Shown: positions 9,363 to 27,731 of the stretch, in pieces
How positions within the stretch are numbered: the first letter of the stretch is position 1
Layout of the letters: each line of letters starts with the position of its first letter
Assembly (NCBI GenBank): GCA_002068435.1
Contig: MVZQ01000006.1
Coordinates: 1 to 36,845 of the forward strand
Origin: Euryarchaeota archaeon ADurb.BinA087
GTDB lineage: Archaea > Halobacteriota > Methanomicrobia > Methanomicrobiales > Methanospirillaceae
DNA length: 36,845 nucleotides
Direction: 5' to 3'
Translations under genes and position numbers: made by a program
The notes under the pieces: model-generated
The model's database searches: none
What the model was told of the DNA's origin: nothing
Seen by the model: only the letters and a program-made list of their open reading frames with translations

Positions 9363-9472
9363 ACCCCTTCTCCTTATCATTCTGTTCCCGGGTAATGGTA
9401 ATGATACTATCGTGTTGGAGATCTGCACTATTATGAGGCGAATCGCCTTTTTTCAAAGGAAGGTATGATACT

Positions 9473-11746
9473 TCAGGCGGATTCTTCGAACGTGAAATAA
9501 AAGGTTGCCCCCTTGCCTGGTTCACTCTCAGCCCAGATTTTTCCCCCATGGCGGTGTATGATTCGTTCGACGCTTGCAAGACCGATCCCGGACCCTTCGA
9601 ACTCTTCTGGTTTATGAAGTCGCTGGAAGGGTTTGAAGATCTGTTCTGAGTACTTCATGTCAAATCCAATACCGTTATCCCTCACGTAATAGAGTATGGT
9701 GGAGTCTCTGACGATTGCCCCGATCTCGATCCGGGGCGCATTGGTATCCCTCGTGAATTTTACCGCATTTCCGATAAGATTTTCATATACCTGCCGGAGC
9801 ATCACCGGATCCGCATAGCAGTGTGGCAATTCCCCGACTCTGATCTCGATCTGCCGGTCTGGCATCGGCTCAAGTCGCATGGCTACGATCTCCCGGACCA
9901 GCGCCGTTGGATCAATCCACTCGCGGCTGAGTTCCTGCCGCCCCACCCGGGAGAGGGTCAGAAGTCCATTGATCAAATTATCCATGATTCCGATGTTCTT
10001 CCGGATTACCTCGATATAGTGCCGCTCCTTCTCATCCAGCCGCGAATCGGTCGATTTTTGCAGGATAAATGAGTATCCGTCAATGTATCGGAGGGGAGCC
10101 CGGAGGTCATGGGATACCGAATAGGTGAATGTCTCCATCTCGGCAGTGGCTTCTCCCAGTTCCCTGGTTCTCTGCTCGACTCTCCGCTCCAGTTCCAGAT
10201 TCAGCTGTCGCATCTCCTTCTCGATGTCCTTTAAACGGGAAATGTCGACAATAGTTCCCCGGGTACCAAGAACCGTTCCTTCATTGATGAATCGTGCGGT
10301 ATTATACACCATGATCGGAAAGATGCTGCCGTCTTTCCTGATAGCGGTGTATTCGTCCCCCTCCGTCTTCTTCCCGTGCAGGACTGCCGTGAAATTCTCA
10401 TTTGCCCGTACACGGTCTTTTGGAACCAGCACATCGAAAAGAGTTATTCCTTTCTCGAGATCCTCTGGGTCATACCCAAATAAGGCATAGGCTGCGGGAT
10501 TAGCAAAGGTGATTTTCCCGGTCATTTCAGTCTCAAAGACCCCTTGAGGCAGGAACTGGATGAGATCCATGAATCGTTTCTCATTGATCTCACACTCCCT
10601 GATCTGCTCTTTCAGCTTTTCAACCATGAGCTGGGTTCTTTCAGCAAGGATTGAGAACTCATAGCCGGTGACCGGCCTGATGGCTTGGTTGAGATCTCCA
10701 CTGGCGATCGTATCAACATCTTCGACAAGCTGCTCAATGGGGCGCGAGATCTTTCGGGAGACCAGGATGGCGATAAGTGCTCCGGAAAGGAGCACAAGTG
10801 CAGCAACCAGGGCATGCTGTATGGCGAGCTGGTTCAACTGGCTGGTAAGGAGTGCGTCATTGTAGGTGATTTTGGCAAAAATGCTGGTATCCGCTCCATA
10901 GGTGGGATCGCGGAGATCAATCACCTGCCAGAAGATGGTCCGTTCCCGCTCATTGTCATGAACCTCCTGGCTGGTCCGGTTCTCCCAGAGGATATAATCA
11001 AGCATGGCATGGTCCTGCTCGGTGGGAACATACGTGGTATTCCCTATCAGCCGCTTCTGCTTCTGGAACAGCAATACTTCTTCAAGATAGGGATTGAATT
11101 CCCAGATATTATTGATCGCATCATGGCCGAGCATTCTCCGCTCCCCCTCAAAATGTTCCGAGCGGAGCCCGAGCTCAAGGATGTATCGGTGATCAGGGGT
11201 TGGCATGTAACTGAATTTTGTCCGGGCTCCTGTGTTCCAGTCATTGACCACCCGGTCAGGGTAGAATCCCGATGTATTTTCTATCTCATGGAGATACTGG
11301 CAGAAGTCTGGGTAGATGACTGTAAAGTCCAGCCCGATGTCGGCAGGCACCGTCGCATATTCGATGACGCACCTGTCATTGATGACATAGACATCCATGC
11401 CGCCTATCGCAGATTTAAGGCCTTCGAGGTCCATTCGGGCAGGGATTCCTCCCGTCCTGTTGTATTCCTGCATCACTACCGTGAACGCCTTCTCCATCTC
11501 GTCGTTGTAGGTCGTATCATAGAGTTTAAGCCCGACATCGTTCAATGTGAAGGAGTTGTCGATGTACATCTCGGTCATGACTCTGAGCCGATTTGCATTA
11601 TCCTTGAGATCCCGGGCAGAATGTGCGTAGTTGACCCATATCCCGGCAAGAACGAGTATGATAATGATAAGAACAATGATCCCGGTGAGGAGATGCTTGA
11701 ATGGCAGCTTTCTATCGGTGATTGGAATCCGGGTCTCCCCCTTCAC
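9473..11746 (-). CDS. Membrane sensor histidine kinase, paralogue of the downstream kinase
   Basis: A 757-residue kinase with the same plan: TM about 16-42, extracytoplasmic sensor, TM about 308-333, HAMP (SRPIEQLVEDVDTIASGDL), PAS (about 390-510), HisKA with H546 in SVSHDLRAPL, and HATPase with NAVKFTR, DNGIGFDM and EGSGIGLAS. The sensor shares with the other kinase a conserved stretch around SGFYPDRVV and YMPTPDHRYILELG, indicating a tandem duplication with diverged ligand sites. The start is GTG, without a ribosome site. A TATA-like TTTTTATGA about 25 bp upstream suggests leaderless translation. It is the first gene of the pair and divergent from the SPFH gene. Confidence 0.92.
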   Translation of the reverse strand: MKGETRIPITDRKLPFKHLLTGIIVLIIIILVLAGIWVNYAHSARDLKDNANRLRVMTEMYIDNSFTLNDVGLKLYDTTYNDEMEKAFTVVMQEYNRTGGIPARMDLEGLKSAIGGMDVYVINDRCVIEYATVPADIGLDFTVIYPDFCQYLHEIENTSGFYPDRVVNDWNTGARTKFSYMPTPDHRYILELGLRSEHFEGERRMLGHDAINNIWEFNPYLEEVLLFQKQKRLIGNTTYVPTEQDHAMLDYILWENRTSQEVHDNERERTIFWQVIDLRDPTYGADTSIFAKITYNDALLTSQLNQLAIQHALVAALVLLSGALIAILVSRKISRPIEQLVEDVDTIASGDLNQAIRPVTGYEFSILAERTQLMVEKLKEQIRECEINEKRFMDLIQFLPQGVFETEMTGKITFANPAAYALFGYDPEDLEKGITLFDVLVPKDRVRANENFTAVLHGKKTEGDEYTAIRKDGSIFPIMVYNTARFINEGTVLGTRGTIVDISRLKDIEKEMRQLNLELERRVEQRTRELGEATAEMETFTYSVSHDLRAPLRYIDGYSFILQKSTDSRLDEKERHYIEVIRKNIGIMDNLINGLLTLSRVGRQELSREWIDPTALVREIVAMRLEPMPDRQIEIRVGELPHCYADPVMLRQVYENLIGNAVKFTRDTNAPRIEIGAIVRDSTILYYVRDNGIGFDMKYSEQIFKPFQRLHKPEEFEGSGIGLASVERIIHRHGGKIWAESEPGKGATFYFTFEESA

Positions 11747-11775: not shown

Positions 11776-11959
11776 ATCTGGATCGTTCTTATCATATCGA
11801 AGAATCGAAGTGAAAGATTCGCATTCCAGTGCATGGATTGTCCCGGTTGGCAGGGAGGATATCGTATTGTATCCCTCGCGGTCTCCCGCTTTCTTTTCGA
11901 CACCACCCAGCCAACACAATACCTATCGTATCAGCCATCAAACAGGCTGATCGATCGTT

Positions 11960-12934
11960 ATGGCATCACTTTCAGAGCGAATTCCAACCCCCTCGAGTTT
12001 CGAGAGGACCTCCAATGTCGTTCTCGCAATCGCAGGGGCATTTCTGATCGCGGTTATTGTGTGGTTTGCCACAGAGAACCCGATCTATACGATTGCTGCG
12101 GCCCTGATCGTGGGCTACCTCCTACTCGGGGTCAGGATCGTCCGGCCCACCCACCGGGTGCTGATCGAGTTTCTCGGAAAATTCCAGAGGTTCGGCGGGC
12201 CGGGATTCTACTGGGTCCTCCCGGGCTTCCAGAAGCTCTACGCAGTGAACATCACTGAAAAAATGGTGAATGCCACCCGGCAGGAGATCATCACCGCCGA
12301 CAACCTGAACGCGACCGTGGATGCCCAGGTCTACTTCAAGGTGAAGGATGACGAGGTGAACGTGAAGCGGTCCCAGTACAATGTCTTCAACTACGAGGAC
12401 CAGATCGTCAACCTGGCCCGGACCACCCTCCGTAACATCATCGGGACGCTCTCTTTAAAGTCGGCAAACAGCGAGCGGTCACGGATCAACGATGAGCTCG
12501 GGAAGGTGCTGAAGACCGAGACCCAGTCCTGGGGGATCGAGATCGTCAGGACCGAGCTGAAGGAGATCATGCCTCCGCCCGACGTGCAGGACACGATGAA
12601 CAAGGTGGTCAAGGCCGAGAACGAGAAGATTGCCGCGATCGACTTTGCAACGGCACGGGAGACCGAAGCCGATGGGCTGCGCAGGGCTGCCGTCAAGCAG
12701 GCGGAAGGGGTAAAACAGGCCAAGATCCTCGAAGCCGAGGGGCAGGCCGAGGCGATCCGGCTCGTGAACGAGGCTGCCGACCGGTTCTTCATCGGCAACG
12801 CCCAGAAGCTGAAGTCCCTCGAGGTGACCGAGAGCGCTTTAAAGACGAATACCAAGATCGTCCTCCCGGAAGGCCAGCAGATCGTGAATGTGATTGGGGA
12901 GCTTGCCGGGAGCAAGATGGGGCTGCAGGAATAG
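11960..12934 (+). CDS. SPFH/stomatin-prohibitin family membrane protein
   Basis: A 324-residue protein of the stomatin/prohibitin/flotillin superfamily. Two hydrophobic segments (about residues 20-37 and 43-58) are followed by the SPFH domain (about 60-220), which begins VRPTHRVLIEFLGKFQR and contains the typical TADNLNATVDAQVYFKV strand region. The C-terminal part (about 220-300) is an Ala/Glu-rich coiled coil (ARETEADGLRRAAVKQAEG) as in oligomerising stomatins. Such proteins form large membrane rings or microdomains, often with a NfeD partner or protease; no partner gene is adjacent. It is divergent from the kinases and 240 bp upstream of sbcD on the same strand. A T-run at about 12952-12957 probably ends its transcript. 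Confidence 0.92.
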   Translation: MASLSERIPTPSSFERTSNVVLAIAGAFLIAVIVWFATENPIYTIAAALIVGYLLLGVRIVRPTHRVLIEFLGKFQRFGGPGFYWVLPGFQKLYAVNITEKMVNATRQEIITADNLNATVDAQVYFKVKDDEVNVKRSQYNVFNYEDQIVNLARTTLRNIIGTLSLKSANSERSRINDELGKVLKTETQSWGIEIVRTELKEIMPPPDVQDTMNKVVKAENEKIAAIDFATARETEADGLRRAAVKQAEGVKQAKILEAEGQAEAIRLVNEAADRFFIGNAQKLKSLEVTESALKTNTKIVLPEGQQIVNVIGELAGSKMGLQE

Positions 12935-13115
12935 AAGAACCAACATCCTTTTTCAGGTATCCGTTCACATGAATGTCAGATCTCCCTGGTCTAGTGATTT
13001 TGAGTGCAGTAGTTCAAAAGAAGAAAAAGAGCTCTGGCATTCCTCCCTCCCTCAGCGAACTGGTTTTCCCTAGGCCCTCTTCCCTCGATTCATTTTCTCC
13101 CCGCACTTCTCTATC

Positions 13116-13123
13116 TTATATAG
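13116..13123 (+). promoter_or_regulatory. TATA box of the sbcDC-addBA block
   Basis: TTATATAG is a good archaeal TATA box 52-59 bp before the sbcD ATG, which predicts a leader of about 30 nt containing GGAGACGGTG as ribosome site. It supports a separate promoter for the repair block rather than read-through from the SPFH gene. Confidence 0.55.
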
Positions 13124-13174
13124 GAGCAGTTCTTTACCCTCTACCAATCAATCACCTCCAAGCGGAGACGGTGC

Positions 13175-14401
13175 ATGAAAGTCCTCCATACTTCTGACTG
13201 GCATCTGGGCAACGTGTTGCATGGGAGGAAGAGGTATGACGAGTACGAACAGTTCCTCGACTGGCTGGTGGGGTGTATCAGGGATGAGCAGATTGATGTT
13301 CTGCTGATTGCGGGGGATATCTTTGACACAACTGCCCCAAGCAACCGTGCACAGGAACTGTACTACCATTTTCTCAACCGGGTGGCGGAGATTCATGGCC
13401 TCCAGGTCGTGGTTACCGGTGGAAATCACGACTCCCCGTCATTGTTGAATGCCCCAAAACCCCTCCTTCGGCAGTTACACATCCATGTGGTGGGGGCAGC
13501 CACCCCGGATATATCAGAAGAGGTGTTCCTTCTCAAATCAGGGGATAGCTTGGAATCCGTGATTGTGTGTGCGGTCCCCTATCTTCGTGACAGGGACATA
13601 CGGAGGGTAGAGCCCGGCGAGAGTATCGATGACAAAATGACGAAGATCCAGGAAGGGATCAGCGATCATTACCGTCAGGTGTGGACCGTTGCACAATCGC
13701 TCAGGGGGGATAGAGCGATACCGATCATCGCAATGGGGCATCTGTTCCTTGCCGGGTGCTCCCCAAACGGGGATGACAGGGTCAGGGAGCTGTATATCGG
13801 CACCCTTGATGGTGTTGACCCGGGCAGCATCCTCCATGGATTTGACTACCTGGCACTGGGACACCTCCACGAGCACCGGAAAGTCACAGGAAGTCCATGG
13901 TGCCGGTACTCGGGAGCACCGATTCCCCTTGGATTTGGTGAAGCCGGACAGGAGAAGAAGGTGGTAGTCATCGATCTTCCCGAAGAGGGGACCCGATCGG
14001 TACGGGAGGTCCCGGTCCCCTGCTTTCTAAGGTTGCAGAAGATCCCGGGTACGATCTCCGCAATCGAGCAGACACTGCGAGGGCTATGTGCAGGAGAGGA
14101 GCGTGTCTGGGTTGAAATCGTTGTCGAATCTGGTGGCACCTCGGCGGGTCTCCAGTCACGCCTCCATGACCTTGTGCGGAATTCACCTGTGGAGATCCTG
14201 AAGATTGAGAATGCTGCTCTCACGAATGCGGTATTACGTGCCATGGAGGAAGGGGAGCATCTTGGAGATCTTGATGAGACGGACGTCTTCTCCCGCTGCC
14301 TGGACGAACATGGGATAACGGGTGGGGACCGGGATCAGCTGATCACCCTGTTTCAGGAGATCCTGGTCGCGGTCCGGGAAGAAGACCGATATGCAGAATG
14401 A
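13175..14401 (+). CDS. sbcD: Exonuclease subunit SbcD (Mre11-type phosphoesterase)
   Basis: A 408-residue metallophosphoesterase, the nuclease half of the SbcCD/Mre11-Rad50 complex that trims DNA ends and opens hairpins. Two-metal site residues are visible: D8 and H10 (TSDWHLG), D48 (AGDIFD), N84-H85 (GGNHDS), H189 (AMGHLF), H230 and H232 (LGHLHEHR). The length and the capping C-terminal domain agree with bacterial SbcD; the architecture is closer to that than to the usual archaeal Mre11. The ATG follows GGAGACGGTGC. The stop is 9 bp before sbcC, a typical operon spacing. Confidence 0.95.
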   Translation: MKVLHTSDWHLGNVLHGRKRYDEYEQFLDWLVGCIRDEQIDVLLIAGDIFDTTAPSNRAQELYYHFLNRVAEIHGLQVVVTGGNHDSPSLLNAPKPLLRQLHIHVVGAATPDISEEVFLLKSGDSLESVIVCAVPYLRDRDIRRVEPGESIDDKMTKIQEGISDHYRQVWTVAQSLRGDRAIPIIAMGHLFLAGCSPNGDDRVRELYIGTLDGVDPGSILHGFDYLALGHLHEHRKVTGSPWCRYSGAPIPLGFGEAGQEKKVVVIDLPEEGTRSVREVPVPCFLRLQKIPGTISAIEQTLRGLCAGEERVWVEIVVESGGTSAGLQSRLHDLVRNSPVEILKIENAALTNAVLRAMEEGEHLGDLDETDVFSRCLDEHGITGGDRDQLITLFQEILVAVREEDRYAE

Positions 14402-14410
14402 GGAAGCACG

Positions 14411-17400
14411 ATGCGGATACTGAAGCTCCGTTTCAAGAACCTGAATTCTCTCGCGGGAGAATGGAGCATCGATTTTACGCACCCTGCATATGTCTCACCA
14501 GGTATCTTTGCAATAACGGGACCCACAGGATCAGGGAAGACCACCATCCTCGATGCGATCTGCCTGGCCCTCTATGGGCAGACTCCCCGTCTGAAAACGA
14601 TCTCGAAGAGCACGAACGAGATCATGACCCGGAATGCCGCTGAATGTTTTGCCGAGGTTGAGTTCGAGTCCCAGGTCGGCCGCTTTGTCTGCCATTGGAG
14701 CCAGCGCCGGGCACACAAAAAACCGGAGGGAGAACTGCAGCCTCCAAAGCACGAGATTGCCGACCAGGCTTCGGGAAAAGTCCTTGAGAACAAACTGCAG
14801 AGGGTGGCAGAGAGGGTCATCCAGACCACGGGGCTCGATTTTACCCAGTTCACCCGCTCGATCCTGCTCGCACAGGGTGATTTCGCTGCGTTCCTGAATG
14901 CAAATCCCGATGAACGGGCCCCGATTCTCGAAAAGATAACAGGAACAGCGATCTATAGCGATATCTCAAAAAAAGTGCATGAGAGGAATACCCTGGAGGC
15001 TGGAAAAAGGAACGAGCTCCAGGAGAGGATTGGAATCCTCGAGATCCTCTCCCCAGAGGAAGTCGCTGCTCTGAAGCGTACCTCAGAAGAGATTGGGGAA
15101 GCGATCCGGAAAAAGTCATCTGAACGCGACTCGATCAGGAAGGCTGCAGAATGGCTGCAGCAGATCTCCCGGCTTGAGGCGGAGATCGAAGCCCTTGCGG
15201 AAGAGAACCGATTGCTTGAGGTGAAAAGGGCGGATGCTGCACCCGATCTTGCCCTTCTTGCCCGGGCAAGGAAGTGTCAGCCGTTCGAAGAGTCCTATCG
15301 GGATCTCACCTCTTCGAGAAAACTCTCTGAGACCTATGAAAGCGAGATTGGTGCAGCGAGGGAACAACTGGATGGTACCCGGGTTTCCTATATGGCATCG
15401 CTCAGGGCGTATGAGAGCGCACGGCAACGGTATGAATCGCTGAAGGCTGCTGCAGAAGAAGAGAAACAGGTTCTCATCCGGGTCCGGAATCTCGACACCC
15501 GGATTCAGGAGATAAAAGATCAGATTGCCGAGAAGAAGATCGAGCTGAAGAAGGGTGAGGCCAGCCTCCAGCAATGCACACGGAATATCACCAAGCAGAC
15601 CGAACGGGACAAGGAGAAGAAAGCCGAGCTCACCACGGCCATCACCTACCTTGAGGATCATCCGGAAGATTCCCTCCTGCGGGAGATCTTATCGGGTCTT
15701 GGTGAGAAAATGCGGCACTATGAACAGCTGACCCGGCGTCTTCTGTCAAACAGGGACCAGCTGGCATCACAGACTGCCGAAGTGGAACGGCTCAAAAAAG
15801 CCCATGAAGCCCAGAGAACGCTCCTCGAGGAGATAGATCGGGAGTTTCAGGAGGCAACCGCGGCAGCACGGATGATTGAGGAGACTGCCGATCAACTGAT
15901 GGATTACCGTGAATCCGGATTCTGGCAGTCTTGTGTGGTATCCCTGAAAGAACGGCGGATAAAATTAGAGGCCGAGCTGAAGATTCACGATGCTATCGAG
16001 CAGATTGGCGTGAAGATCCGGGAACGTGAAGAACACCAGGCCCAGCTGAAGGAGGAGATTGCAAAGAAACGGGAGATCCTGTCAGGCCTGATACGTGAAC
16101 AGGATCTGAAAGAAGAGATTCGTGCCCGGATCGAGACCAATCTCGCGCTCCTCCACCGTATCGAAAGCCTTGAAGAGGCTCGAAGTCACCTTCTGGAGGG
16201 TGACCCCTGCCCGTTGTGCGGCTCTCCTGATCATCCTTATGTCCGGGGGACCATCCCCCGTATGGACAGGGTGAAATCAGAATGGGAGGAGATCAGAGAG
16301 GAGTTGAGAATGCTCTCCGACCAGATACGACAGACGGAACTTTCTCTCTCACAATCAGAGACAACCCTCTCGTCTGATATAAGAGCGGTAACGGAACAAA
16401 AGGATCGGATCCGTGAACTGCTGGATGACTCAGTCCTCGGGTTCGAGGATATGGGTTTTGTCACGAACTCCAGCCTCCTGAAAAAGTCCCTCTCCCATGC
16501 CCTCACGCTCTGTGAGGTGCATTCTGCATGGTGTTCCGATATCGTCGCATCTTATGAAGGTATAGTGCCGCGGTTGAAGGATGCCTCCGATGCCGCGACC
16601 CGGATAAAAGAGAGTCTCTCCAGTCATCAGATTGCGTTGGGGAATCTTGACATATCGTTGAAAATTCGCTCAAACACCCTGTATGAGCTGGAGCAGCAGG
16701 TTGCATCGGATGCAGAGGAACTGGCACGATTATATCAGGAAGTTGCCGCTGAACTTCATGGGTTTGGAATAGCGTTTACGGAGGGGACATCGATTGCCGG
16801 GATCCTGGAATCCCTGGAGAAGAGGAAGCGGGAGTTCGAGAAGATGGCGAAACGGAAAACGGATATTGAAAAGGAGATTGACCTCATTGCGGGCACCATA
16901 CAGAACCACCAGAAGCAGATGGAGGATACCAGAGTGGCCGTTGCATCGCAGTTGCAGGGTATCAGCGAGAAAGAGGGGGTATTCGCCGCATTAGACCAGG
17001 AGAGGAAGGAATTATTTGGCACCAGGGATCCCGACCGCGAAGAGAAACGATCGGCTGATGAGCTCCGTTCTGCCGAGGAACAATTCAGAGAGGCTTCCAG
17101 TACGTCCAAAGAGTATGAAACCCGTATTAAAACGTTACAGGAGCAGATCGAGAAGAAGAGCGGAACTCTGGAGCAGATCCTGATCACGGTCCGGGATCAT
17201 ACTTCTGCATTTCTGGCCGGCATCCAAAAGGCAGGATTCTTGGGAGAGGAGGAGTTTAACGCATCACGGATGCCCCGTGACCGGTTTGAAGTGCTCGAGA
17301 AGAGGGAGACTGACCTGATCTTCGAGGAACGGGATCTCTCATCACGGATAAAGGAAAGAACGACTGCCCTTTCATATGAGCGATCCCTGAACCTGACCGA

Positions 17401-18091
17401 TAAGTCCCCTGATACTCTGGAAGAGAAGATCTCTTCACTCGAATCGGATATGAGCGGTCTCAACCAGGAACAGGGGGGTATCCGCCAGAAGGTGATCGAT
17501 CATGAGGCACTGGTTGCCCACCAGAACGAGCTGCTCCTCGTGCTCCGGAAGCAGGAGGCAGAATGCCTCCGCTGGGAGAAGCTGCACGATCTGATCGGAT
17601 CTTCGGATGGGAAAAAATTCCGGGTCTTTGCACAGGGTCTCACGTTCGACCGCCTCATCGCCCATGCGAACCGGCACCTCAGGAAGATGAGTGACCGGTA
17701 TCTCCTCATACGGGGGGGAAGATCCTCCCTTGACCTCGATATCATGGACAATTACCAGGCAGGGGAGATCCGCTCCACAAAGAACCTTTCCGGAGGGGAG
17801 AGTTTCATTGTCAGCCTCGCCCTCGCCCTCGGACTCTCTGGCATGGCAAGCCGGAATGTTCGGATCGATTCGTTGTTCCTGGATGAAGGATTCGGGACGC
17901 TGGACAGTGAGACCCTCGAGGTAGCCCTTGAGACCCTCGCAACCCTGCAGCAGGAAGGAAAGATCATCGGGATCATCTCCCATGTCCCGGCGCTCAAGGA
18001 GCGGATATCGACAAAGATCATTGTCGAGAAGATGACGGGCGGGAGGAGCCGGCTCAAAGCCCCGGGGTGCAGGGCTCCTGGCACTTCATGA
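14411..18091 (+). CDS. sbcC: Exonuclease subunit SbcC (Rad50-type SMC ATPase)
   Basis: A 1226-residue SMC-like ATPase that partners SbcD. The N-terminal half of the ATPase has Walker A GPTGSGKTT (37-45) and QGDFAAFL. Long antiparallel coiled coils rich in Glu/Lys/Arg follow, joined by a zinc hook C600-P-L-C603 (CPLCGSPDHP). The C-terminal half has the ABC signature NLSGGES (about 1125-1132), Walker B SLFLDEGFG (about 1155) and a D-loop (TLDSETLE). Size and the NSLAGEWSIDF N-terminus match bacterial SbcC, which is longer than most archaeal Rad50. GAGGAA between the genes is its ribosome site. The final 15 residues are Arg/Gly-rich and probably disordered. Confidence 0.95.
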   Translation: MRILKLRFKNLNSLAGEWSIDFTHPAYVSPGIFAITGPTGSGKTTILDAICLALYGQTPRLKTISKSTNEIMTRNAAECFAEVEFESQVGRFVCHWSQRRAHKKPEGELQPPKHEIADQASGKVLENKLQRVAERVIQTTGLDFTQFTRSILLAQGDFAAFLNANPDERAPILEKITGTAIYSDISKKVHERNTLEAGKRNELQERIGILEILSPEEVAALKRTSEEIGEAIRKKSSERDSIRKAAEWLQQISRLEAEIEALAEENRLLEVKRADAAPDLALLARARKCQPFEESYRDLTSSRKLSETYESEIGAAREQLDGTRVSYMASLRAYESARQRYESLKAAAEEEKQVLIRVRNLDTRIQEIKDQIAEKKIELKKGEASLQQCTRNITKQTERDKEKKAELTTAITYLEDHPEDSLLREILSGLGEKMRHYEQLTRRLLSNRDQLASQTAEVERLKKAHEAQRTLLEEIDREFQEATAAARMIEETADQLMDYRESGFWQSCVVSLKERRIKLEAELKIHDAIEQIGVKIREREEHQAQLKEEIAKKREILSGLIREQDLKEEIRARIETNLALLHRIESLEEARSHLLEGDPCPLCGSPDHPYVRGTIPRMDRVKSEWEEIREELRMLSDQIRQTELSLSQSETTLSSDIRAVTEQKDRIRELLDDSVLGFEDMGFVTNSSLLKKSLSHALTLCEVHSAWCSDIVASYEGIVPRLKDASDAATRIKESLSSHQIALGNLDISLKIRSNTLYELEQQVASDAEELARLYQEVAAELHGFGIAFTEGTSIAGILESLEKRKREFEKMAKRKTDIEKEIDLIAGTIQNHQKQMEDTRVAVASQLQGISEKEGVFAALDQERKELFGTRDPDREEKRSADELRSAEEQFREASSTSKEYETRIKTLQEQIEKKSGTLEQILITVRDHTSAFLAGIQKAGFLGEEEFNASRMPRDRFEVLEKRETDLIFEERDLSSRIKERTTALSYERSLNLTDKSPDTLEEKISSLESDMSGLNQEQGGIRQKVIDHEALVAHQNELLLVLRKQEAECLRWEKLHDLIGSSDGKKFRVFAQGLTFDRLIAHANRHLRKMSDRYLLIRGGRSSLDLDIMDNYQAGEIRSTKNLSGGESFIVSLALALGLSGMASRNVRIDSLFLDEGFGTLDSETLEVALETLATLQQEGKIIGIISHVPALKERISTKIIVEKMTGGRSRLKAPGCRAPGTS

Positions 18092-18165
18092 TCAATCGAA
18101 TTGAGGATTTTCTGGCCATTCGGATAATTTCGACGAAAGGAATCGTTCAAGACTCCAACCGCGTA

Positions 18166-18177
18166 ATACTGTAGTAT
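18166..18177. promoter_or_regulatory. Near-palindrome directly before addB-like start
   Basis: ATACT and AGTAT are inverted around a central GT, ending 3 bp before the ATG at 18181. It could be an operator or a small hairpin hiding the start. No ribosome site is visible in this 89-bp gap. This is an observation only; palindromes of this size occur by chance. Confidence 0.2.
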
Positions 18178-18180
18178 CCT

Positions 18181-21100
18181 ATGACAGCCCGCTGTTCGGT
18201 CATCCAGGGTCTTTTTGGGGATCATCTGGAAGCGTTCATCAGTGACTTCCAGGCCGGGAGTGAACGCAATCCTTTCTCAACCTGGCTCATCCTTCCCACC
18301 GAACGGCTCGTGCAGCATGTCAGGGACGAACTTTCGAGAAAGGATGTTCCCTTCATCCCGTCCCGGATCTGCACGATGAAAGGATTCTGCAGGAGTTATT
18401 TTGAGGAGCATCGGACCACCACGCGTGAACTGACAGAGGCAGAGTCGCGACTGCTCCTCACACAGATCCTTTCCGACAACCGGGAGGTGCTGCCGTTGTT
18501 CTTTGTGCGGGACCGCCCCCTGCCCGGCACCATCGAGAATCTCCAGGAATTCATACGGGTTATCACGGCGAGGAACGTCAGCTTCCCGGAATGCCTCGGA
18601 GATCTGCAGGGCGAGAAGAGTGAGCAGATTGCCAGGATCATTTCTGCTTACCGGAACCGGCTGAAAGAGCTTGACCTGGTGGATCCTGATACGCTCATTG
18701 AATGGACGATCCTCCACCTGGGAAAAGAAGGTGCAACGCCTCACCGCCAGATATTCGTGTACGGTCTCTTCAGGCCTCTTCCCCTCGAAGAGGATCTCCT
18801 CTCCCACCTCCGGGAGCGATCAGAATCATTCACCTGTTTCATCCCATCAGGAGCTGATCCCGCAATTTTCTCCGGAACGCTTGATTGGACAGGGAGTATC
18901 GATACCGGGTCATCGTTTCAGCTCCCCCCTTCCACTTCCTCATTCTTGACCGGGATATTCTCTTCACCGGGACCGATCGACATCGGTGAGTCCATCAGGC
19001 TGGATACCTTTCCCTCCCATTCTGCTGAACTCCAGGCGATTGCAAAAGAGATATGCCTTCTGAACGAGGATGGTGTTCCCCTCTCTGATATCTCGGTCGC
19101 GTTCCCGGAATTGCAGGATGAACTCTACCGTATCACGGAGGTATTTTCGGATTTTGGGATTCGCTGGAATTCACGTGTTACCCCAAAGTTATCCAGATTT
19201 CCGGTAATCCGGTTCCTTGTGGGAATCATCGGGCTTGTGGTCAACCGTTACCCCCGTGAGGAGGTCATCTCATTCCTGAACAGCCCTTACATGCATGGTC
19301 CCTCACGGAAGGGATTCCTCCTGCTGGATCCGTCAGAAGTTGACCTTGTTTCACGCCATGCCTGTGTTGAATCCGGGAGGAATGAATGGCGGGATCGTCT
19401 TGAATATCTCGCTTCATCGATCGCAAACGGAAGTGAAAGGCGATACCATGGAATCAGCCAGGATTCGGCAGGCCGGGTAAGGGACGGGATCCTCCGGCTC
19501 TTCGATACACTGGAGGGGCTTGAAGGCAGGAGAAGCATGCAGGATTTCGTGCGTGAATACCGGGGCTTCCTCGATCGGTATCACCTGCCCAACCTCCCGT
19601 CCGCATCCGGGAACCAGGAACGTTTCAGCGATGAACGCATTTTCGGTATCTTCCGTGAACGGCTGGAATCCCTGCGGCATAACCCATTCCTCCCGGAAGG
19701 CAGGAAGGTCACGACTGATGTATTCCTCCGCATGGTCAATATCCTCATCGATGAGCCGGTAGGGGATCCTGACCCTGAGGGGGGAGGGGTGTCGGTTATC
19801 GGGATCCGCGAGGCAATTCACCTGCATCTGCCGGTATTGTTCCTCTGTGGATTGGTAGAGGGGGTTGTTCCCCGCCTGACCACCCGGCTTCCCTTCACTA
19901 ATTCGCTTGAAAACGCACGGATGGGGACCCGGTCCCTTGCGGAAATCCTCCATGAACAGGAGTATTACTTTATCGCAGCGCTCCTCTCTTCACAGCACGT
20001 CTATCTGAGTGCACCCCTCGCTGATGGGACCAACCCGCTCCTCACGTCTGCCTTCTTCGAGCGGGTAAGGATGGTATGCCATCCGATGGGGTGGAACAGT
20101 ACCGGCCAGGATGCCGAGCGCTTTTCACGTAGCCTCGCGGCTGTTACTGCAGGAGAAAGGATTGCAGAAGGGCTGGTTTGCCAGGCTCTTGATCATCTGG
20201 ATCCACTGCTCAGTATCGACGACCTGGTAGCTCGTATCAATGCCGAGCGCTACTACCGGAAGGGAACCTGTGATTCCATCTACGAGGGAATGCTGTCTGC
20301 TGATGAAACCATCGCTGCTGCTCTCGAGGAGCGGTTCAGCCCCGATGGGGTATATTCCGCAACAAGCCTCGAGACCTATGCCCAGTGTCCCTTCAGGTTT
20401 TTCCTTGGAAATGTCCTTCGGCTGGAAGATCTCCCTGATGGTGATCAGAACCTCTCTCCAGCGGACCGGGGAAGTGCAGTACATGATATCCTCTCGACTT
20501 TTTACCGCCGCTGGCTTGCAGCGGGACGGGGGAACATCACCCCCGCTTCTATAGAAGCAGCAACCAGTCTCATGCAGGAGATTGCCCGGGAAGAGCTTGA
20601 CCGTCACCATTTCGAGAGTCCCCTCTGGGAGGCGACCTGTCTGCAGATGAAGGGCTCTCCTCATGCCGGCCCGGGATACCTGGAACGCTTCCTCACCAAG
20701 GAAGCGGAAGCAGAGGATTCCCCGCTGGTTCCCAGCCATTTTGAATTCTCCTTCGGGATGGACCCGTCCGGAACCGATGACCCAGCCTCGGTAGAAGAAG
20801 CAGTTGCCCTCACCAGTTCCGACGGGTGTGAACAGCTCCGGATACGGGGTCGGATCGATCGGATCGATATCTCCCCGGAAGGGCTCTTCCTCATCTACGA
20901 CTACAAGACCGGACGCGGGCATCCAAAAATCAAGGATATCGAGGAAGGGAAAGCCCTGCAGCTCCCTCTCTACCTGCTTGCCTTCGAGGCGCTTTCGGAA
21001 AAACGCGGGGTGGCCGCAGGGTACTACCAGATCAGGAAGGAAGTCCGGCGCGATCTGCTCCTCTGCGATGAACAAGCAAGGTGTCTTGTCGCATCACGGA

Positions 21101-21291
21101 CAAAGGTGACACCGGATATCGCTGCACTGATCACGCGATCCTGCGATTTTGCCATCGGGTATATCCGCAGGATCAGGGCGGGGGCGTTTCCCTTCCCTGC
21201 CGACGAGCACTGCCCGAACTCCTACTGCGAGTTCAGGCGCATATGCCGGTTCGATCCGTACAGGGTCTCCGATTTAGGGGAGGAGTCCTGA
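18181..21291 (+). CDS. AddB-like subunit: inactivated helicase fold plus PD-(D/E)XK nuclease
   Basis: A 1036-residue protein resembling AddB/RexB of bacterial helicase-nucleases that resect double-strand ends. The N-terminus (ILPTERLVQHVRDEL, then TMKGFCRSYF) has the helicase-like layout, but no GxGKT is visible, so it probably does not hydrolyse ATP. The C-terminal nuclease shows RGRIDRID and D907-Y908-K909 (IYDYKTG). Four cysteines, C736 (CPFRFF), C1011, C1016 and C1022 (CPNSYCEFRRIC), frame the nuclease as in the iron-sulfur-bound AddB nuclease, although the C-terminal spacing here is C-x4-C-x5-C. The stop overlaps the next ATG by one base (TGATG), which implies translational coupling with the AddA-like partner. 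Confidence 0.85.
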   Translation: MTARCSVIQGLFGDHLEAFISDFQAGSERNPFSTWLILPTERLVQHVRDELSRKDVPFIPSRICTMKGFCRSYFEEHRTTTRELTEAESRLLLTQILSDNREVLPLFFVRDRPLPGTIENLQEFIRVITARNVSFPECLGDLQGEKSEQIARIISAYRNRLKELDLVDPDTLIEWTILHLGKEGATPHRQIFVYGLFRPLPLEEDLLSHLRERSESFTCFIPSGADPAIFSGTLDWTGSIDTGSSFQLPPSTSSFLTGIFSSPGPIDIGESIRLDTFPSHSAELQAIAKEICLLNEDGVPLSDISVAFPELQDELYRITEVFSDFGIRWNSRVTPKLSRFPVIRFLVGIIGLVVNRYPREEVISFLNSPYMHGPSRKGFLLLDPSEVDLVSRHACVESGRNEWRDRLEYLASSIANGSERRYHGISQDSAGRVRDGILRLFDTLEGLEGRRSMQDFVREYRGFLDRYHLPNLPSASGNQERFSDERIFGIFRERLESLRHNPFLPEGRKVTTDVFLRMVNILIDEPVGDPDPEGGGVSVIGIREAIHLHLPVLFLCGLVEGVVPRLTTRLPFTNSLENARMGTRSLAEILHEQEYYFIAALLSSQHVYLSAPLADGTNPLLTSAFFERVRMVCHPMGWNSTGQDAERFSRSLAAVTAGERIAEGLVCQALDHLDPLLSIDDLVARINAERYYRKGTCDSIYEGMLSADETIAAALEERFSPDGVYSATSLETYAQCPFRFFLGNVLRLEDLPDGDQNLSPADRGSAVHDILSTFYRRWLAAGRGNITPASIEAATSLMQEIAREELDRHHFESPLWEATCLQMKGSPHAGPGYLERFLTKEAEAEDSPLVPSHFEFSFGMDPSGTDDPASVEEAVALTSSDGCEQLRIRGRIDRIDISPEGLFLIYDYKTGRGHPKIKDIEEGKALQLPLYLLAFEALSEKRGVAAGYYQIRKEVRRDLLLCDEQARCLVASRTKVTPDIAALITRSCDFAIGYIRRIRAGAFPFPADEHCPNSYCEFRRICRFDPYRVSDLGEES

Positions 21292-24200
21292 TGGCCGCAA
21301 CAAGACGGCAGAACGAGGCGATCTCCACCCATGACAGGAGTCTTGTGGTCACTGCGGGGGCGGGTACCGGAAAGACCTATGTCCTCGTGCAGAAATACCT
21401 CGACCTCCTCGAGACCCGGGGAGTGACGGTCCCCGAGATACTTGCCCTCACGTTCACGGAAAAGGCTGCTGCCGAGATGAAAGAACGGATACGGAGAGCA
21501 CTGTCAGGAAAAAAAGGAGAACGGTGGGAGCGGGCGGCGGTGGATTTCCTGGTTGCCCCTGTCCAGACCTTCCACTCCTTCTGTGCCCAGGTCCTTCGCG
21601 AATTTCCCATTGAATCCGGCCTCGAACCGGGATTCGCAGTGCTGGACGAGAGGCAGGTCTCCCGCCTCCATGGAAAGGCATTCGAGAACCTTGTCCACGC
21701 ACCTCATCCCCCGACTGTCCATGATGCAGTTGTACGAATCCTCTCGGTATTCGAACCGTCCATAGTCCGTGCGATGCTCGCGGAGATGTACGGCAAAAGG
21801 CTGTCATACCAACAGTTCTTTGAGGCACTCGGGTCGGACAGGGACCAGGTGATGCAGTCCTGGATGCAGGAAGTCAACATGGTCCGTGAAACAGGGATCA
21901 GGGATATACGGAACGACCGTTCGTTCAATGCTGCACTCACCACGCTTTTTTCTCTCGCTGATCGTTATGAGGGTGCTGATGACAAGGCTGTCTGCTATCT
22001 CTGCGGGATCCGGCCGCTTCTCGAGGGTATCTCAGGGGATTCCGGCATTGAGGAGTTCTGTTCTGCCGCCCCCGATCTCCTCACAAAGCGCCCGGGGAAT
22101 GTCGGGAGCAGGAAAGTATGGAATGGAAACGACCTCTCGCTGTTCAAATCAGCCTATAAAGAACTGAATGACATCCTGAAGAGGAAGAGCAGTCTCTTCC
22201 GGATGACGGTTGACCCTGCCGATCCGCTTGTCACTGGCGCAATTGACCTCCTGGGAGATCTCTTGCTTGTCTATCGCCGGTATACAGAACTGGTGGAGCG
22301 GGAGAAGGCGGTCCTTGGGGGACTTGATTTCGAGGATCTGATCCTGCACGCCCGGCAGCTGTTCCTGACCAATGAAGATCTCGTTGCCACCCATTTCCTG
22401 CCACGGTTCAGGTACATCCTCATCGACGAGTTCCAGGACACCGATCCCTTGCAGTTTGACATCATCCTCGCGATCATCGGCACACCCGATCCATCTCCGG
22501 ACTGCCTCTTCATTGTCGGCGATCCCAAGCAGTCGATCTATCTCTTCCGGGATGCTGATGTCACCCGTTTCAAAGCGGTCCAGGAGATCATTCTCAATCA
22601 GTGCCATGGACGTGAGGTGCACCTAGACACGAGTTTCCGGAGCACAAAAGAGGTGATAGGGTGTGCAAACTATCTCTTCTCCCGCCTCTTTGCCTCGGCA
22701 GAGAAACCGTGGGAGTTCGGGTACGAACCGATCCTTGTGTCGGAAGCCCGGGCAGAGGATGCGGGATCAGTTGAACTGCTGCTCCCCCCGTCAGTAGAGG
22801 ACTCTGCTGCGACGAAGTGGATCGAGGCTGACATGGTGGCACGGAGGATCCAGAGCCTTGTCCATGGCTCTCCTGTCCCTGTCTATGAGGAAGCAGAGGA
22901 CCGGTCGTTTATTTCAAGGCCTGCCCGGTACGGCGATATTGCGATCCTCCTTGAACAGAGGACGAACCTTTCCTCGTATCTTGCTGCCCTCGCCAGATAT
23001 GGCATTCCTTTCTACGTGCACGGAGGGACAGGGTTCTATTCGCGGCAGGAGGTGTATGACCTGTACAATCTCCTCCGGTTCCTCCACTTCAGGCATGATG
23101 ATATCAGCCTTGCAGGAACGCTCCGCTCGCCGTATTGTGGCCTCCCTGATTCCGATTTGTTCCGGATTGCAGGAGAAAAGGGCCGGACCTTCTGGGAGAA
23201 GCTCCAGAACTACGCTGAACAGACCGCTTCAGAGGGTCCGGTTCGTGCATGCCGGCTCCTCTCTCTCTGGATGGCAGATGCGGGGCGGACCGGCATCGTC
23301 CCGCTCATCAGGCGGATCCTTTCTGAATCCGGGATATACACGGTGTATGCGGCACTTCCCGAGGGGAAACAGGTCCTTGCCAATATTGAGAAGATCGTCG
23401 CCATGGCCCGGGTTCGGGAGGGTGCCGGAACCTACGGACTTGCCGACTTCATCGAGGATCTCGGGACCGCCATGGATGAGGAGGAGCGGGAGGGTGAAGC
23501 CCCGCTCGATGCCCTCGCCGATAACTCGGTCAATGTCATGACGGTCCATGCCGCCAAGGGGCTGGAATTCCCAATTGTCGTGGTTCCTGACATGGGGATG
23601 CGGTTCCGGGAGACGTTCCCTCCCATCATGATCGGCGATAATCCGCTCCTCGTTGGGATACCGGTCCCCGATCCAGAGGAAGATTTCGAGCTTACGAAGA
23701 CTCCGATGCTTCTTGCCCTCCGGGAGATGCGGCGCCAGAAGGAACGTGCCGAGAAGAAACGGCTCCTCTACGTTGCCCTTACCCGTGCAAGGGACCACCT
23801 GATCATGAGCGGTTCTGCCCCGGCCAACCCTGCCCTTTCGATTCCGCTTGCAACCTCCCGGATCGAATGGCTCTTCTCGGCCCTCGGAATCACGGATGAT
23901 GCTATTGCTGCCGGAGGAATGGATCTGGTGAGCGGCAACATAACCGTCCACCTCGCCATAACGAGCGATCCGGCAACAATCCCTGCAGAGGCCACAGAGA
24001 CCATCCCGGAGCTTCTTGTCGTGCCTGAGGAATGTGCAGGCAGGAGCGGTACCTGGTCGCCGAAAGAGTTTGATAAGGGTCCGGAAAGGATTGAGATTAT
24101 GTCGGTGACGGAACTTGAGAATAAAGGATCAGCTCATGTTCCTTCGCCATGCAAACCGATTAAATCCCGTTACTTAGTGGGAATTGACGGTGCAATGAAG

Positions 24201-24623
24201 GGAACCATCATCCACGAGGTATTCCGTGGCCGTGATCCCAGGGTGGTGTGCCTGGAGTATGGAGTGAGTGATCAGGAAGCAGTCCGGCAATGCAAGGAGA
24301 TGGTAACCCGGTTCCGCTCATCGGCAATGATACAGCAGGTGAAGAGGGAGTTCTGTGAGCTGCCTTTCGTTATCACCTATGCCGATAGGCATGTAACCGG
24401 GAAGATTGACCGGTTGTGCGAACTCATCGATGGTACCTGGGTGGTGATCGATTACAAGTCGGACCCGGTTGATCCTTCAGAATATACGAAAAAGGCGTGG
24501 GAATACCAGACTTCAATGGACGTCTACGTCGAAGCGGCCAGGCAGCTTGTGAAGGAAAAGAGTGTTGAAGGATACCTGTATTTCACGGAAACAGGGGAAT
24601 TTTTGGAAAGCAGTGGGGAATGA
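21291..24623 (+). CDS. AddA-like UvrD/RecB-family helicase-nuclease
   Basis: A 1110-residue SF1A helicase fused to a RecB-type nuclease. Helicase motifs: Walker A TAGAGTGKT (21-29), LTFTEKAAAEM (Ia), DEFQDTDP with D379-E380 (II), VGDPKQSIYLFRDAD (III), TVHAAKGLEFPIVVV (V) and LYVALTRARDHL (VI). The C-terminal nuclease has GKIDRL with D1040 and IDYKSD with D1054 and K1056, so both activities should be intact. The start is fixed by the TGATG overlap with the AddB-like gene; the frame is open further upstream, but only inside that gene. Together the two subunits should unwind and degrade DNA from broken ends. The stop is 9 bp from the end of the convergent HTH_42 gene. Confidence 0.93.
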   Translation: MAATRRQNEAISTHDRSLVVTAGAGTGKTYVLVQKYLDLLETRGVTVPEILALTFTEKAAAEMKERIRRALSGKKGERWERAAVDFLVAPVQTFHSFCAQVLREFPIESGLEPGFAVLDERQVSRLHGKAFENLVHAPHPPTVHDAVVRILSVFEPSIVRAMLAEMYGKRLSYQQFFEALGSDRDQVMQSWMQEVNMVRETGIRDIRNDRSFNAALTTLFSLADRYEGADDKAVCYLCGIRPLLEGISGDSGIEEFCSAAPDLLTKRPGNVGSRKVWNGNDLSLFKSAYKELNDILKRKSSLFRMTVDPADPLVTGAIDLLGDLLLVYRRYTELVEREKAVLGGLDFEDLILHARQLFLTNEDLVATHFLPRFRYILIDEFQDTDPLQFDIILAIIGTPDPSPDCLFIVGDPKQSIYLFRDADVTRFKAVQEIILNQCHGREVHLDTSFRSTKEVIGCANYLFSRLFASAEKPWEFGYEPILVSEARAEDAGSVELLLPPSVEDSAATKWIEADMVARRIQSLVHGSPVPVYEEAEDRSFISRPARYGDIAILLEQRTNLSSYLAALARYGIPFYVHGGTGFYSRQEVYDLYNLLRFLHFRHDDISLAGTLRSPYCGLPDSDLFRIAGEKGRTFWEKLQNYAEQTASEGPVRACRLLSLWMADAGRTGIVPLIRRILSESGIYTVYAALPEGKQVLANIEKIVAMARVREGAGTYGLADFIEDLGTAMDEEEREGEAPLDALADNSVNVMTVHAAKGLEFPIVVVPDMGMRFRETFPPIMIGDNPLLVGIPVPDPEEDFELTKTPMLLALREMRRQKERAEKKRLLYVALTRARDHLIMSGSAPANPALSIPLATSRIEWLFSALGITDDAIAAGGMDLVSGNITVHLAITSDPATIPAEATETIPELLVVPEECAGRSGTWSPKEFDKGPERIEIMSVTELENKGSAHVPSPCKPIKSRYLVGIDGAMKGTIIHEVFRGRDPRVVCLEYGVSDQEAVRQCKEMVTRFRSSAMIQQVKREFCELPFVITYADRHVTGKIDRLCELIDGTWVVIDYKSDPVDPSEYTKKAWEYQTSMDVYVEAARQLVKEKSVEGYLYFTETGEFLESSGE

Positions 24624-24632
24624 AGGTGGGAA

Positions 24633-25706
24633 TTAAACCAGTTCCACCCACCTCCCAAAAAATTCCCCGTACCGCTGGACCTCTCTCTCCACGGCTTCCT
24701 GTTCCTCGTCATTGAGTTCCCTGAACGGATTCAGGAGTACCTCAATCGAGTCCTTCTTTACCCTCTTCTTCCAGGTCCCGGCCACCTTTCCGTAAAGGAC
24801 GATGACGGCAGTCATGGCATTTCCTTTCACGATCATCCGCTCGATCTCCCGGGCATCGCTGATCGCGCTTCGGTCAGTATAGGCTATCGTATACTCGTCG
24901 TACATTGAAAGGAGGAGGGCAACCGGTGGATCAGGGATCACTTCTCCGTCCTCAGGGGGAGACCAATATGGTTTTCCGTCGATTAAGGTCCGCTCCAGCT
25001 CCTCCCTGATCGAATCGAGTCCGGCCTCTGCATCCCTGCTGGAGAGTCCCGACCACCAGGAGAAGTCCCTGAGCTGGGCCGGCCCGTGGCTGCCAAAGTA
25101 TCGGCATGCAAGTTCAGCAAGGGATTGTTCTCTCGTGAGTGCTCTCGATTCCCTGACCCGTTCATCGACAAGCGCATAGGTATGCTGCCTCCCCTGCATC
25201 GGCCCGCTGCAGATCAACCCCTCGAGCTCCGCCTGCATGATGATGTGGGCAAGGCGCTGAACATCGGTCACGATACCGATGTCTGCCAGAATACCCTTCA
25301 GGTCCTGCCTCGTGAGAACATGGTGACCCTCGAGGGCCTTTTCAATTGCAGCATTGCTCTTCGAAAATAAAGTGGTATCAAGCCCCAGCTTCCGGTTGGA
25401 CGCCGCCACCGTCGATTTCACCCCTGGGGCTGTCAGGGCGGTCATCCACCTGAGGTCCTCGGGCAGGATGAAATGCCACGTGGGACGTAACACATGGACA
25501 CGGAGAATCTTTCCATCATTATACGCATCCTCGATTATCGCAGCAGTTACATCCCTGATTCTGAGCCCGAGCGACCAAATCGCAGCGGAAAAATCCTGGG
25601 CCTGGACAGCTCCTGCATGGGCCACCGCTTCAGCCGCGGTCGTGACGGTTGGTTGGCTGAGGCCTGAATGATAGAGGCGGAGGGAAGGGATCTCTTCCGG
25701 CGTCAT
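24633..25706 (-). CDS. HTH_42 winged-helix protein, AlkZ/YcaQ-like DNA glycosylase candidate
   Basis: A 357-residue protein of the winged-helix DNA-binding family PF06224 (HTH_42). Family motifs visible: VQAQD near residues 34-38, RPTWHFI near 77-83, and YDEYTIAYTDRS near 275. Q35-A-Q37 matches the QxQ catalytic motif at the same distance from the N-terminus in AlkZ-type glycosylases, which excise bulky alkyl adducts and can unhook interstrand crosslinks; YcaQ-type relatives have QxD instead. Glycosylase activity is inferred from this motif alone. The ATG at 25706 has no clear ribosome site. It is downstream of VOC and SRPBCC genes on the same strand and tail-to-tail with the AddA-like gene. 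Confidence 0.8.
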   Translation of the reverse strand: MTPEEIPSLRLYHSGLSQPTVTTAAEAVAHAGAVQAQDFSAAIWSLGLRIRDVTAAIIEDAYNDGKILRVHVLRPTWHFILPEDLRWMTALTAPGVKSTVAASNRKLGLDTTLFSKSNAAIEKALEGHHVLTRQDLKGILADIGIVTDVQRLAHIIMQAELEGLICSGPMQGRQHTYALVDERVRESRALTREQSLAELACRYFGSHGPAQLRDFSWWSGLSSRDAEAGLDSIREELERTLIDGKPYWSPPEDGEVIPDPPVALLLSMYDEYTIAYTDRSAISDAREIERMIVKGNAMTAVIVLYGKVAGTWKKRVKKDSIEVLLNPFRELNDEEQEAVEREVQRYGEFFGRWVELV

Positions 25707-25888
25707 CACAGGAGGGAGTTATCCATGCCAGGAATCTTCATTCTTCCGTCCCTCCCTCCCCCGGCATACCGCAGAAGCATATCTCGTGACCAGTTTTCCG
25801 TCCTCGAGGTCGGTAACCTTCGTCCTGTCCCTGAAGCGCGTTTGCCGTTTCCTAACCTGATCAAGTTCCCCCCGAGACCCAGGGCCTC

Positions 25889-26308
25889 CTACGATGCGTT
25901 GGGATCCTCCTGGAGCATCCCAAAGAGGTTCCCCTCGGTATCCCGGCAGTGTGCCCACCAGCCGATCCCAGGTATTCCCATCCGGGGGAGTATGATGTTT
26001 CCTCCGGCTTTCCTGACCAGGCCGACCGATCGGTCGAGATCGGAAACCCCGATGGTACAGACATATGCATTGACCGCCTGGCCCTCAACCGGGGGAGGAC
26101 CCCGCCGGAAGACGAGGCCTCCGTTGATCCCGGGATCGGTCTCCGGACCGGTGATGACAAACCAGTACCGGTTCTCATCCTTCATCTCGATACCGGGCAT
26201 CACCCATTCGCGGATCTCCCAGCCATACACATTCCGGTAAAACTGTGCCGCCCGTCTGGGGTCATCGGCCTGGATCTCGAAATGAATAATCCTGTTCACA
26301 GGCACCAC
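25889..26308 (-). CDS. VOC-family (glyoxalase/bleomycin-resistance fold) protein
   Basis: A 139-residue, single-domain vicinal-oxygen-chelate protein. It opens with IIHFEIQADDPRRAAQFYRN, the first beta-alpha-beta unit of the fold. The second half has YVCTIGVSDLDRSVGLVRKAGG and ends DTEGNLFGMLQED, the typical C-terminal strand with a metal-ligand glutamate position. Members act as dioxygenases, glyoxalases or drug-binding proteins; nothing here fixes the substrate. The start is GTG at 26308 (or GTG at 26305), with TGAGGAA just upstream as ribosome site. It lies 76 bp after the SRPBCC gene and 182 bp before the HTH_42 gene, in a likely common transcript. Confidence 0.88.
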   Translation of the reverse strand: MVPVNRIIHFEIQADDPRRAAQFYRNVYGWEIREWVMPGIEMKDENRYWFVITGPETDPGINGGLVFRRGPPPVEGQAVNAYVCTIGVSDLDRSVGLVRKAGGNIILPRMGIPGIGWWAHCRDTEGNLFGMLQEDPNAS

Positions 26309-26384
26309 AACCGTTCCTCAGTCGATGTCCTCTCCAGCATACGCCGTGAATGTCCGGTGGCCTGATCTCCGGATATCCGTCTCA

Positions 26385-27365: not shown

Positions 27366-27731
27366 GGAATTCCTCCATTCGTTCCCGCGGTCTTGTTATT
27401 CCCCGTTATTAAATACTTAACCGGGAGTTTCAAAATCTGCCAATCCTCCAAAAAATTCTGTACCAGGGGCGACAGGACACAGAAAAGTACTGAATCGGTA
27501 TTTTCCCTGCGAGACCGGGTGATTCCTGCCCGAGCCGGGTTCTTTGTCATGACAGGGCGGAAAAAGGAATGATGTATACAGAATCATCTGTCCATCAGGC
27601 CTGTTCAACTTCCCGGCGGCCGGATGCCTCCAGAATCACTATATCGAGATCGAGAAGTGTCTTAACCCTATGTCTTCAAGCCCAGGAAATCCTTTCTCTC
27701 CTTTTCCCGTAAATCCTGCCTGGGAAGAGAG
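27366..27731. other. Intergenic region, promoter side of SRPBCC gene; no gene seen
   Basis: It holds an AT-rich element (about 27405-27420, minus-strand TATTTAATAA) that may be the TATA box of the SRPBCC gene about 45 bp before its ATG. The remaining sequence to the end of the DUF2115 gene contains only short frames without coding character. I see no repeat or RNA structure there. Confidence 0.5.

Follow-up and report, generated by a model that had tools for sequence, protein, structure and literature searches.

A bacterial-type SbcCD–AddAB block as the probable replacement of the archaeal Mre11–Rad50–NurA–HerA operon at its chromosomal site

Why does an archaeon carry genes of the bacterial SbcD, SbcC, AddB and AddA type in one block, and how does this block relate to the archaeal mre11-rad50-nurA-herA operon? 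The question is raised by a stretch of 36,845 nucleotides of Euryarchaeota archaeon ADurb.BinA087 (contig MVZQ01000006.1), in the following called the window. Our analysis leads us to the view that the block is probably a housekeeping, bacterial-type module for the resection of double-strand-break ends which has replaced the archaeal Mre11–Rad50–NurA–HerA module at its site. In Sulfolobus islandicus mre11, rad50, nurA and herA are each essential (PMC4351679), and the cooperation of the two archaeal complexes Mre11–Rad50 and NurA–HerA has been described as unclear (PMC8708640).

Composition and host of the block

The original prediction described four co-directional genes for SbcD, SbcC, AddB and AddA with all catalytic motifs. 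Open reading frames, Pfam domains and a motif check confirm this description, and the spacings are also as claimed, with 9 bp between sbcD and sbcC, 89 bp between sbcC and addB and an overlap of 1 bp between addB and addA.

13116-13122, + strand: TTATATA, a TATA-like element of archaeal type, 53-59 bp before sbcD begins, a consensus match only
13175-14401, + strand: sbcD, 408 aa, Mre11-family nuclease, bacterial-type
14411-18091, + strand: sbcC, 1226 aa, Rad50-family ATPase, bacterial-type, with CPLC zinc hook
18181-21291, + strand: addB, 1036 aa, subunit with an inactive, helicase-like N-terminal part, a PD-(D/E)XK nuclease and four cysteines (736, 1011, 1016, 1022)
21291-24623, + strand: addA, 1110 aa if counted from the ATG at 21291, helicase of SF1 with a PD-(D/E)XK nuclease at its C-terminus

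The mechanically derived reading frame of addA begins at GTG 21081, and GGAGG precedes addA. Presumably the block is co-transcribed as one module.

All four proteins contain Pfam domains above the gathering scores, namely Metallophos and SbcD_C in SbcD, AAA_23 and SbcC_Walker_B in SbcC, PDDEXK_1 (151 bits) in AddB, and UvrD-helicase (191 bits), UvrD_C and PDDEXK_1 in AddA. Every catalytic motif that we checked is intact in the translations: SDWHLG, AGDIFD, GGNHDS and GHLHEH in SbcD; GPTGSGKT, the zinc hook CPLC, LSGGES and LFLDEGFG in SbcC; GRIDRID and YDYKTG in AddB; and GAGTGKT, LIDEFQDTD, GKIDRL and VIDYKSD in AddA. AddB also has the four cysteines which in AddAB mark the Fe-S site, the last three being spaced C-x4-C-x5-C; in B. 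subtilis AddB the spacing is C-x2-C-x5-C.

The E. coli-type SbcD model scores 355 bits on the window's SbcD, the archaeal Mre11 models only 46, 30 and 16 bits, and for SbcC the SbcC models reach 545 and 356 bits against 57 bits for archaeal Rad50. SbcD passes both TIGR00619 (195 bits, cut-off 77.65) and PF12320 (SbcD_C; 46.7 bits, cut-off 24.4). SbcC passes SbcC_Walker_B and stays below the SbcC subfamily cut-off (TIGR00618, 356 vs 478.5). The addA models score 346 and 332 bits on AddA; unlike bacterial AddAB, both subunits miss the NCBIfam equivalog cut-offs (346 vs 708 for AddA, 59 vs 904 for AddB), these models being restricted to Gram-positive or alphaproteobacterial members. Since a curated NCBIfam cut-off is passed only by SbcD (TIGR00619), SbcC, AddB and AddA are divergent rather than textbook members of their families. 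Among solved structures AddA matches best B. subtilis AddA (3u44_A, 224 bits; the mycobacterial UvrD/REP helicase-nuclease subunit 6ppu_B scores 110 and RecB 90 bits), and an order-wide AddB profile matches best B. subtilis AddB (3u44_B, 149 bits; 49 bits for 7sjr_A and 40 for RecC). By these comparisons AddA and AddB are nearer to AddAB than to AdnAB or RecBCD. The assignment of the proteins as bacterial-type SbcCD and AddAB is thus supported by the model scores, the structure matches and the SbcD tree described below.

The host is archaeal: the nearest named relatives are Methanoregula, Methanoregulaceae and Methanomicrobiales MAGs. A contig of a related MAG (L034 of G011) is collinear with window positions 11907-25752 at 90% DNA identity; the block is therefore not an assembly chimera. 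Upstream of the block two tandem HAMP-PAS-histidine kinases (7101-11746) are conserved in G011 as well; next to the archaeal operon we did not observe them in those relatives that we examined. As to the archaeal set elsewhere, neither NurA nor HerA gave a match in the window's own genome, but with a source MAG of 2.25 Mb that is 76% complete this absence is weak by itself. The single PF01935 match in this genome is a 24.6-bit fragment and not HerA.

Two modules at one chromosomal site

A congener of the window's genome (G003) has the archaeal operon between the same SPFH and DUF2115 genes. The comparison with this genome (blastn against L069 and L113) divides the window as follows:

11960-12934, + strand: left flank, SPFH/Band 7 gene, 93% protein identity to L069:1-573, present also in the archaeal-operon state (G003)
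12915-25903, no strand: exchanged segment of 13 kb, which carries sbcDC-addBA and a gene for an AlkZ-like glycosylase
25904-28367, no strand: right flank shared with G003, with an ORF at 25668-26240 (+) and the DUF2115 gene at 27732-28367 (-); 76% and 80% DNA identity

DNA homology extends from 12359 to 12914, in the 3' end of the SPFH gene, and is found again from 25904 onwards. The matching interval of G003 comprises 8.2 kb and contains herA-nurA-rad50-mre11 and an RMMBL-domain gene.

Both states are found in different species of five genera (g1, g5, g9, g12 and g16), in most cases among identical neighbouring genes, and same-site pairs are window/G003, G056/G061, G035/G026, G022/G033 and G009/G001. 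In g9, for example, the order in G061 is mre11-rad50-nurA-herA-f5-f4-f10-f20-f30-f44-f14-f19-f6; in G056 addA-addB-rad50-like-mre11-like, transcribed in the opposite direction, is followed by the last 53 residues of herA and then by the same series from f5 to f6. The archaeal operon itself can be interrupted: in G068 and G054 (L096-L099) rad50 and nurA are separated by an insertion of 10-20 kb whose genes include PAS-domain kinases.

AddB-like proteins occur in 57 of 121 relatives and AddA in about 60; a search of the genome contigs with the single AddB led to only three near relatives. For the archaeal module we used a HerA profile (A1) and an Mre11 profile (A2) built from the loci, because Pfam NurA (PF09376) alone missed the divergent NurA of G020 and G024. 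Canonical archaeal HerA was found with A1 in 65 genomes, and the distributions of Mre11 (A2) and SbcD behave likewise. Family f1, which comprises 17 genera including that of the window, contains 29 genomes with AddAB only, 31 with HerA only, two with both and 11 with neither; at a completeness of at least 90% the numbers are 18, 22, zero and six (Fisher p=4.8e-8). For the whole order at the same completeness SbcD alone is present in 21 genomes and Mre11 alone in 49, with none having both and 18 having neither (p=6e-10), and among all 121 genomes the two occur together only in G013, which is 73% complete. Of 11 independent pairs on the species-marker tree 10-11 are opposite in state (sign p 0.001-0.012), and in f2 AddAB and HerA are likewise exclusive (8 vs 2). 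In f3-f6 AddAB and the archaeal operon coexist in 16 genomes of at least 90% completeness, at separate loci and without SbcCD, and genes of both are also present in G013, G025 and G401; AddAB is thus not incompatible with the archaeal operon as such. From the 11 f1 genomes with neither module we conclude that neither is strictly required or that a third solution exists.

Genomes of at least 90% completeness which lack both AddAB and archaeal HerA are G014, G016, G030, G037, G040 and G057. A second, divergent clade of HerA-like ATPases, encoded by a lone gene (e.g., G014:C1:1563721, G030:C30:12441, G018:C7:297754 and G034:C1:94551), is found also in genomes with neither module; as a substitute it was rejected, standing alone with no recognisable NurA partner.

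The original prediction had set the block apart from HerA–NurA. This holds, and the link between the two is stronger than guessed: they share a site and are mutually exclusive. It is hardly credible that incomplete or mis-binned MAGs have produced this pattern. The window's genome and the two genomes with mixed signals, G006 and G013, are incomplete; however, the exclusion becomes sharper at 90% completeness and above, separate MAGs give collinear contigs, and single-contig genomes, which largely refute such an artefact, show both states (archaeal in G015, G043 and G049, AddAB in G022, G036 and G064). Of the single-contig genomes we take G015 to be Methanoregula boonei, G036 Methanoregula formicica, G014 Methanosphaerula palustris, G034 Methanospirillum hungatei and G117 Methanocorpusculum labreanum. 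If these names are right, cultured Methanoregula species show both states.

Remnants, partner genes and origin

Fragments of the archaeal operon are present at 7 of 14 AddAB loci. Tails of HerA lie beside addBA or sbcD in G007, G035, G056 and G071, the one of G056 (53 aa) being 92% identical to intact HerA; in G029 a Rad50 tail (110 aa, 88% identity) and in G036 a broken NurA and a Rad50 tail lie beside addBA. AddA or AddB fragments were sought at the archaeal-operon loci of about 24 genomes, and none was found (7/14 vs 0/24, p=3e-4 with the loci treated as independent). The window's own locus is free of archaeal-operon remnants. When the search was widened to 374 genomes of the phylum, one more f1 genome with both modules came to light (G401). 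On one of its contigs nurA and herA are intact, mre11 is lost and rad50 is reduced to about 136 residues, and these genes adjoin addA-addB and an Mre11/Rad50-like pair. G401 is an intermediate state.

In an EF-2 tree built for 70 genomes no fewer than 12 switches between the two states occur inside f1, and the presence of AddAB and of HerA changes 14 times each when all f1 genomes are counted; G007 (AddAB) is sister to G002 (archaeal operon). This species tree is built from one gene, which may mislead, it places the window's genus in two positions, and the genus labels are group codes. We therefore speak of several independent events and give no precise number.

The same observations could be read as an old tandem arrangement followed by differential loss, in which an f1 ancestor had addBA beside the archaeal operon, as G401 has, and lost one or the other without any repeated replacement. 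The age of AddAB in the order, the tree that keeps families together, the side-by-side modules of G401 and the coexistence at separate loci in f3-f6 all fit such a history, and we regard it as a serious if rather unlikely alternative. The remnants, however, are one-way, archaeal ones beside addBA and never AddA or AddB beside the archaeal operon. Moreover the junctions come directly before sbcD or the gene in its place, and the herA tail adjoins them (G056, G035); the exchange between window and G003 also flips the orientation of the module relative to the shared flanks. We infer that replacement was repeated.

AddAB is the constant part of the module and its partners vary: some species have SbcCD, others a pair that is Mre11/Rad50-like but unrelated, and others again a coiled-coil protein. 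In g5 and g12 a coiled-coil protein of about 460-510 aa precedes addB and SbcCD was not found. Such genes, directly upstream of addB in genomes which have AddAB and lack SbcCD, are L054:8463-9848 (G022), L050:8370-9893, L052:8338-9828 and L090:8129-9607. The protein has an invariant FDAKSPK motif and no Pfam match, is RmuC-like in appearance only, and its predicted structure is poor (mean pLDDT 51.6). In G056 (L089:4456-8291) and G401 (L145:13285-17120) the place of SbcCD is taken by yet another Mre11/Rad50-like pair, the third kind and a very divergent one (377 and 901 aa); it forms a very long branch in the SbcD/Mre11 tree. In G064 sbcD-sbcC is divergent from addBA.

In the SbcD tree, which includes a small bacterial sample of five, the SbcD proteins of the order cluster with those of bacteria, and the Methanomicrobiales Mre11 is split off at 100/99; a placement of all four proteins in ordinary archaeal families was not obtained. 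Rooted on the Mre11 split, the bacterial sequences lie inside the archaeal SbcD diversity, and on so small a sample transfer in either direction is conceivable. The AddA proteins of the order fall into a single group, which is structured by family and separate from the small number of bacterial and haloarchaeal sequences compared; the outgroup branches are long. As AddAB is found across most of the order and the tree keeps families together, it must be old in the Methanomicrobiales. Outside the order the phylum search gave only distant AddB-like proteins. A distant AddB-AddA-like pair is found on haloarchaeal plasmids; on Haladaptatus plasmid NZ_CP119793.1 (L230, 2627-9807) its neighbours are BREX-5 pglZ and an endonuclease gene of the MutH/Sau3AI type.

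A recent acquisition of the whole block from bacteria is improbable. SbcD and SbcC are bacterial-type and bacteria fall within the archaeal SbcD diversity, as such an acquisition might lead one to expect, but the GC content of the block equals that of its surroundings, AddB, SbcD and AddA have their closest relatives in other Methanomicrobiales, the order's AddA stands apart from the bacterial and haloarchaeal sequences, and the partner genes differ between species. With AddAB old in the order and the partners varying, the notion of a single transferred or newly assembled module is not supported as it was put. We prefer to regard the window's block as a module that was resident, or came from within the order, and then occupied the archaeal locus, and not as a fresh bacterial arrival.

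Proposed role and comparison with known systems

The mutual exclusion and the same-site replacement suggest that the block substitutes functionally for HerA–NurA. Judging from what is known of the families, SbcCD would open ends that are blocked by hairpins, by proteins or in other ways, and AddAB would then load on the end, unwind both strands and degrade them to leave a 3' overhang, which could be handed to the archaeal recombinase RadA. No bacterial RecA above the cut-off was found in 73 genomes, and the recombinase must therefore be RadA. That congeneric species have one module or the other at one site leads to the prediction that AddAB can feed RadA.

RecBCD and AddAB degrade phage DNA in bacteria, and a role in foreign-DNA degradation had also been suggested for the block. 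If AddAB and SbcCD were kept mainly to destroy foreign linear DNA, resection would have to be served otherwise. The bacterial precedent and the distant plasmid-borne pair beside BREX-5 pglZ speak for such a role. However, the window and neighbouring genes gave no dedicated match to defence families beyond shared helicase and ATPase folds, the flanking genes are ordinary metabolic and signalling genes with no defence-island context, and exclusion with the archaeal resection operon would be unexpected for a defence add-on. The anti-phage role thus found no support, and we give it little credence.

The block resembles bacterial AddAB (B. subtilis, PDB 3u44; RexAB) in the adjacent addB-addA order, the helicase and nuclease motifs and the best structure match of both subunits. 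It differs in its archaeal host with RadA and no RecA and in the varying adjacent partner gene. With bacterial SbcCD it shares the sbcD-sbcC order, the zinc hook, the model scores and the tree position. Here, however, the genes lie upstream of addB in an archaeon, and SbcC is longer (1226 aa) and below its subfamily cut-off; in B. subtilis sbcD-sbcC come after addB-addA. The likeness to the archaeal mre11-rad50-nurA-herA operon is in the chromosomal site and the inferred role in end resection, whereas AddAB and HerA–NurA are unrelated machines and SbcCD and Mre11–Rad50 distant homologues. In bacteria RecBCD and AddAB have a complementary distribution as non-orthologous end-processing machines replacing one another between lineages (PMC1193525). 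That case involves two related bacterial machines; the present one concerns a single locus, where a bacterial-type set stands against an archaeal one and where remnants and an intermediate are found. The open-access literature that we searched contains no report of this exchange, although archaeal AddAB may have been mentioned earlier.

More tentatively, the whole of the end-resection step may be an interchangeable cassette at a fixed slot in the Methanomicrobiales, with recurrent and recent exchange between Mre11–Rad50–NurA–HerA on one side and SbcCD–AddAB, or AddAB in different company, on the other; RadA would then work behind a front end of the bacterial RecA type, possibly under chi-like control. 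We hold this for a possibility somewhat short of even. Congeneric species with either module at one site are a natural experiment, by which the archaeal genes, all four together, act as a single unit that can be replaced. Pairs of close relatives could reveal effects of the machine on recombination tract length, virus sensitivity, CRISPR spacer uptake and the need for chi-like sites. In the decayed fragments and in G401 one sees stages of non-orthologous displacement such as are rarely observed. G047 has, far from its intact AddB-AddA pair, a second copy that is broken by an internal stop codon (G047:C1:2946809-2948196).
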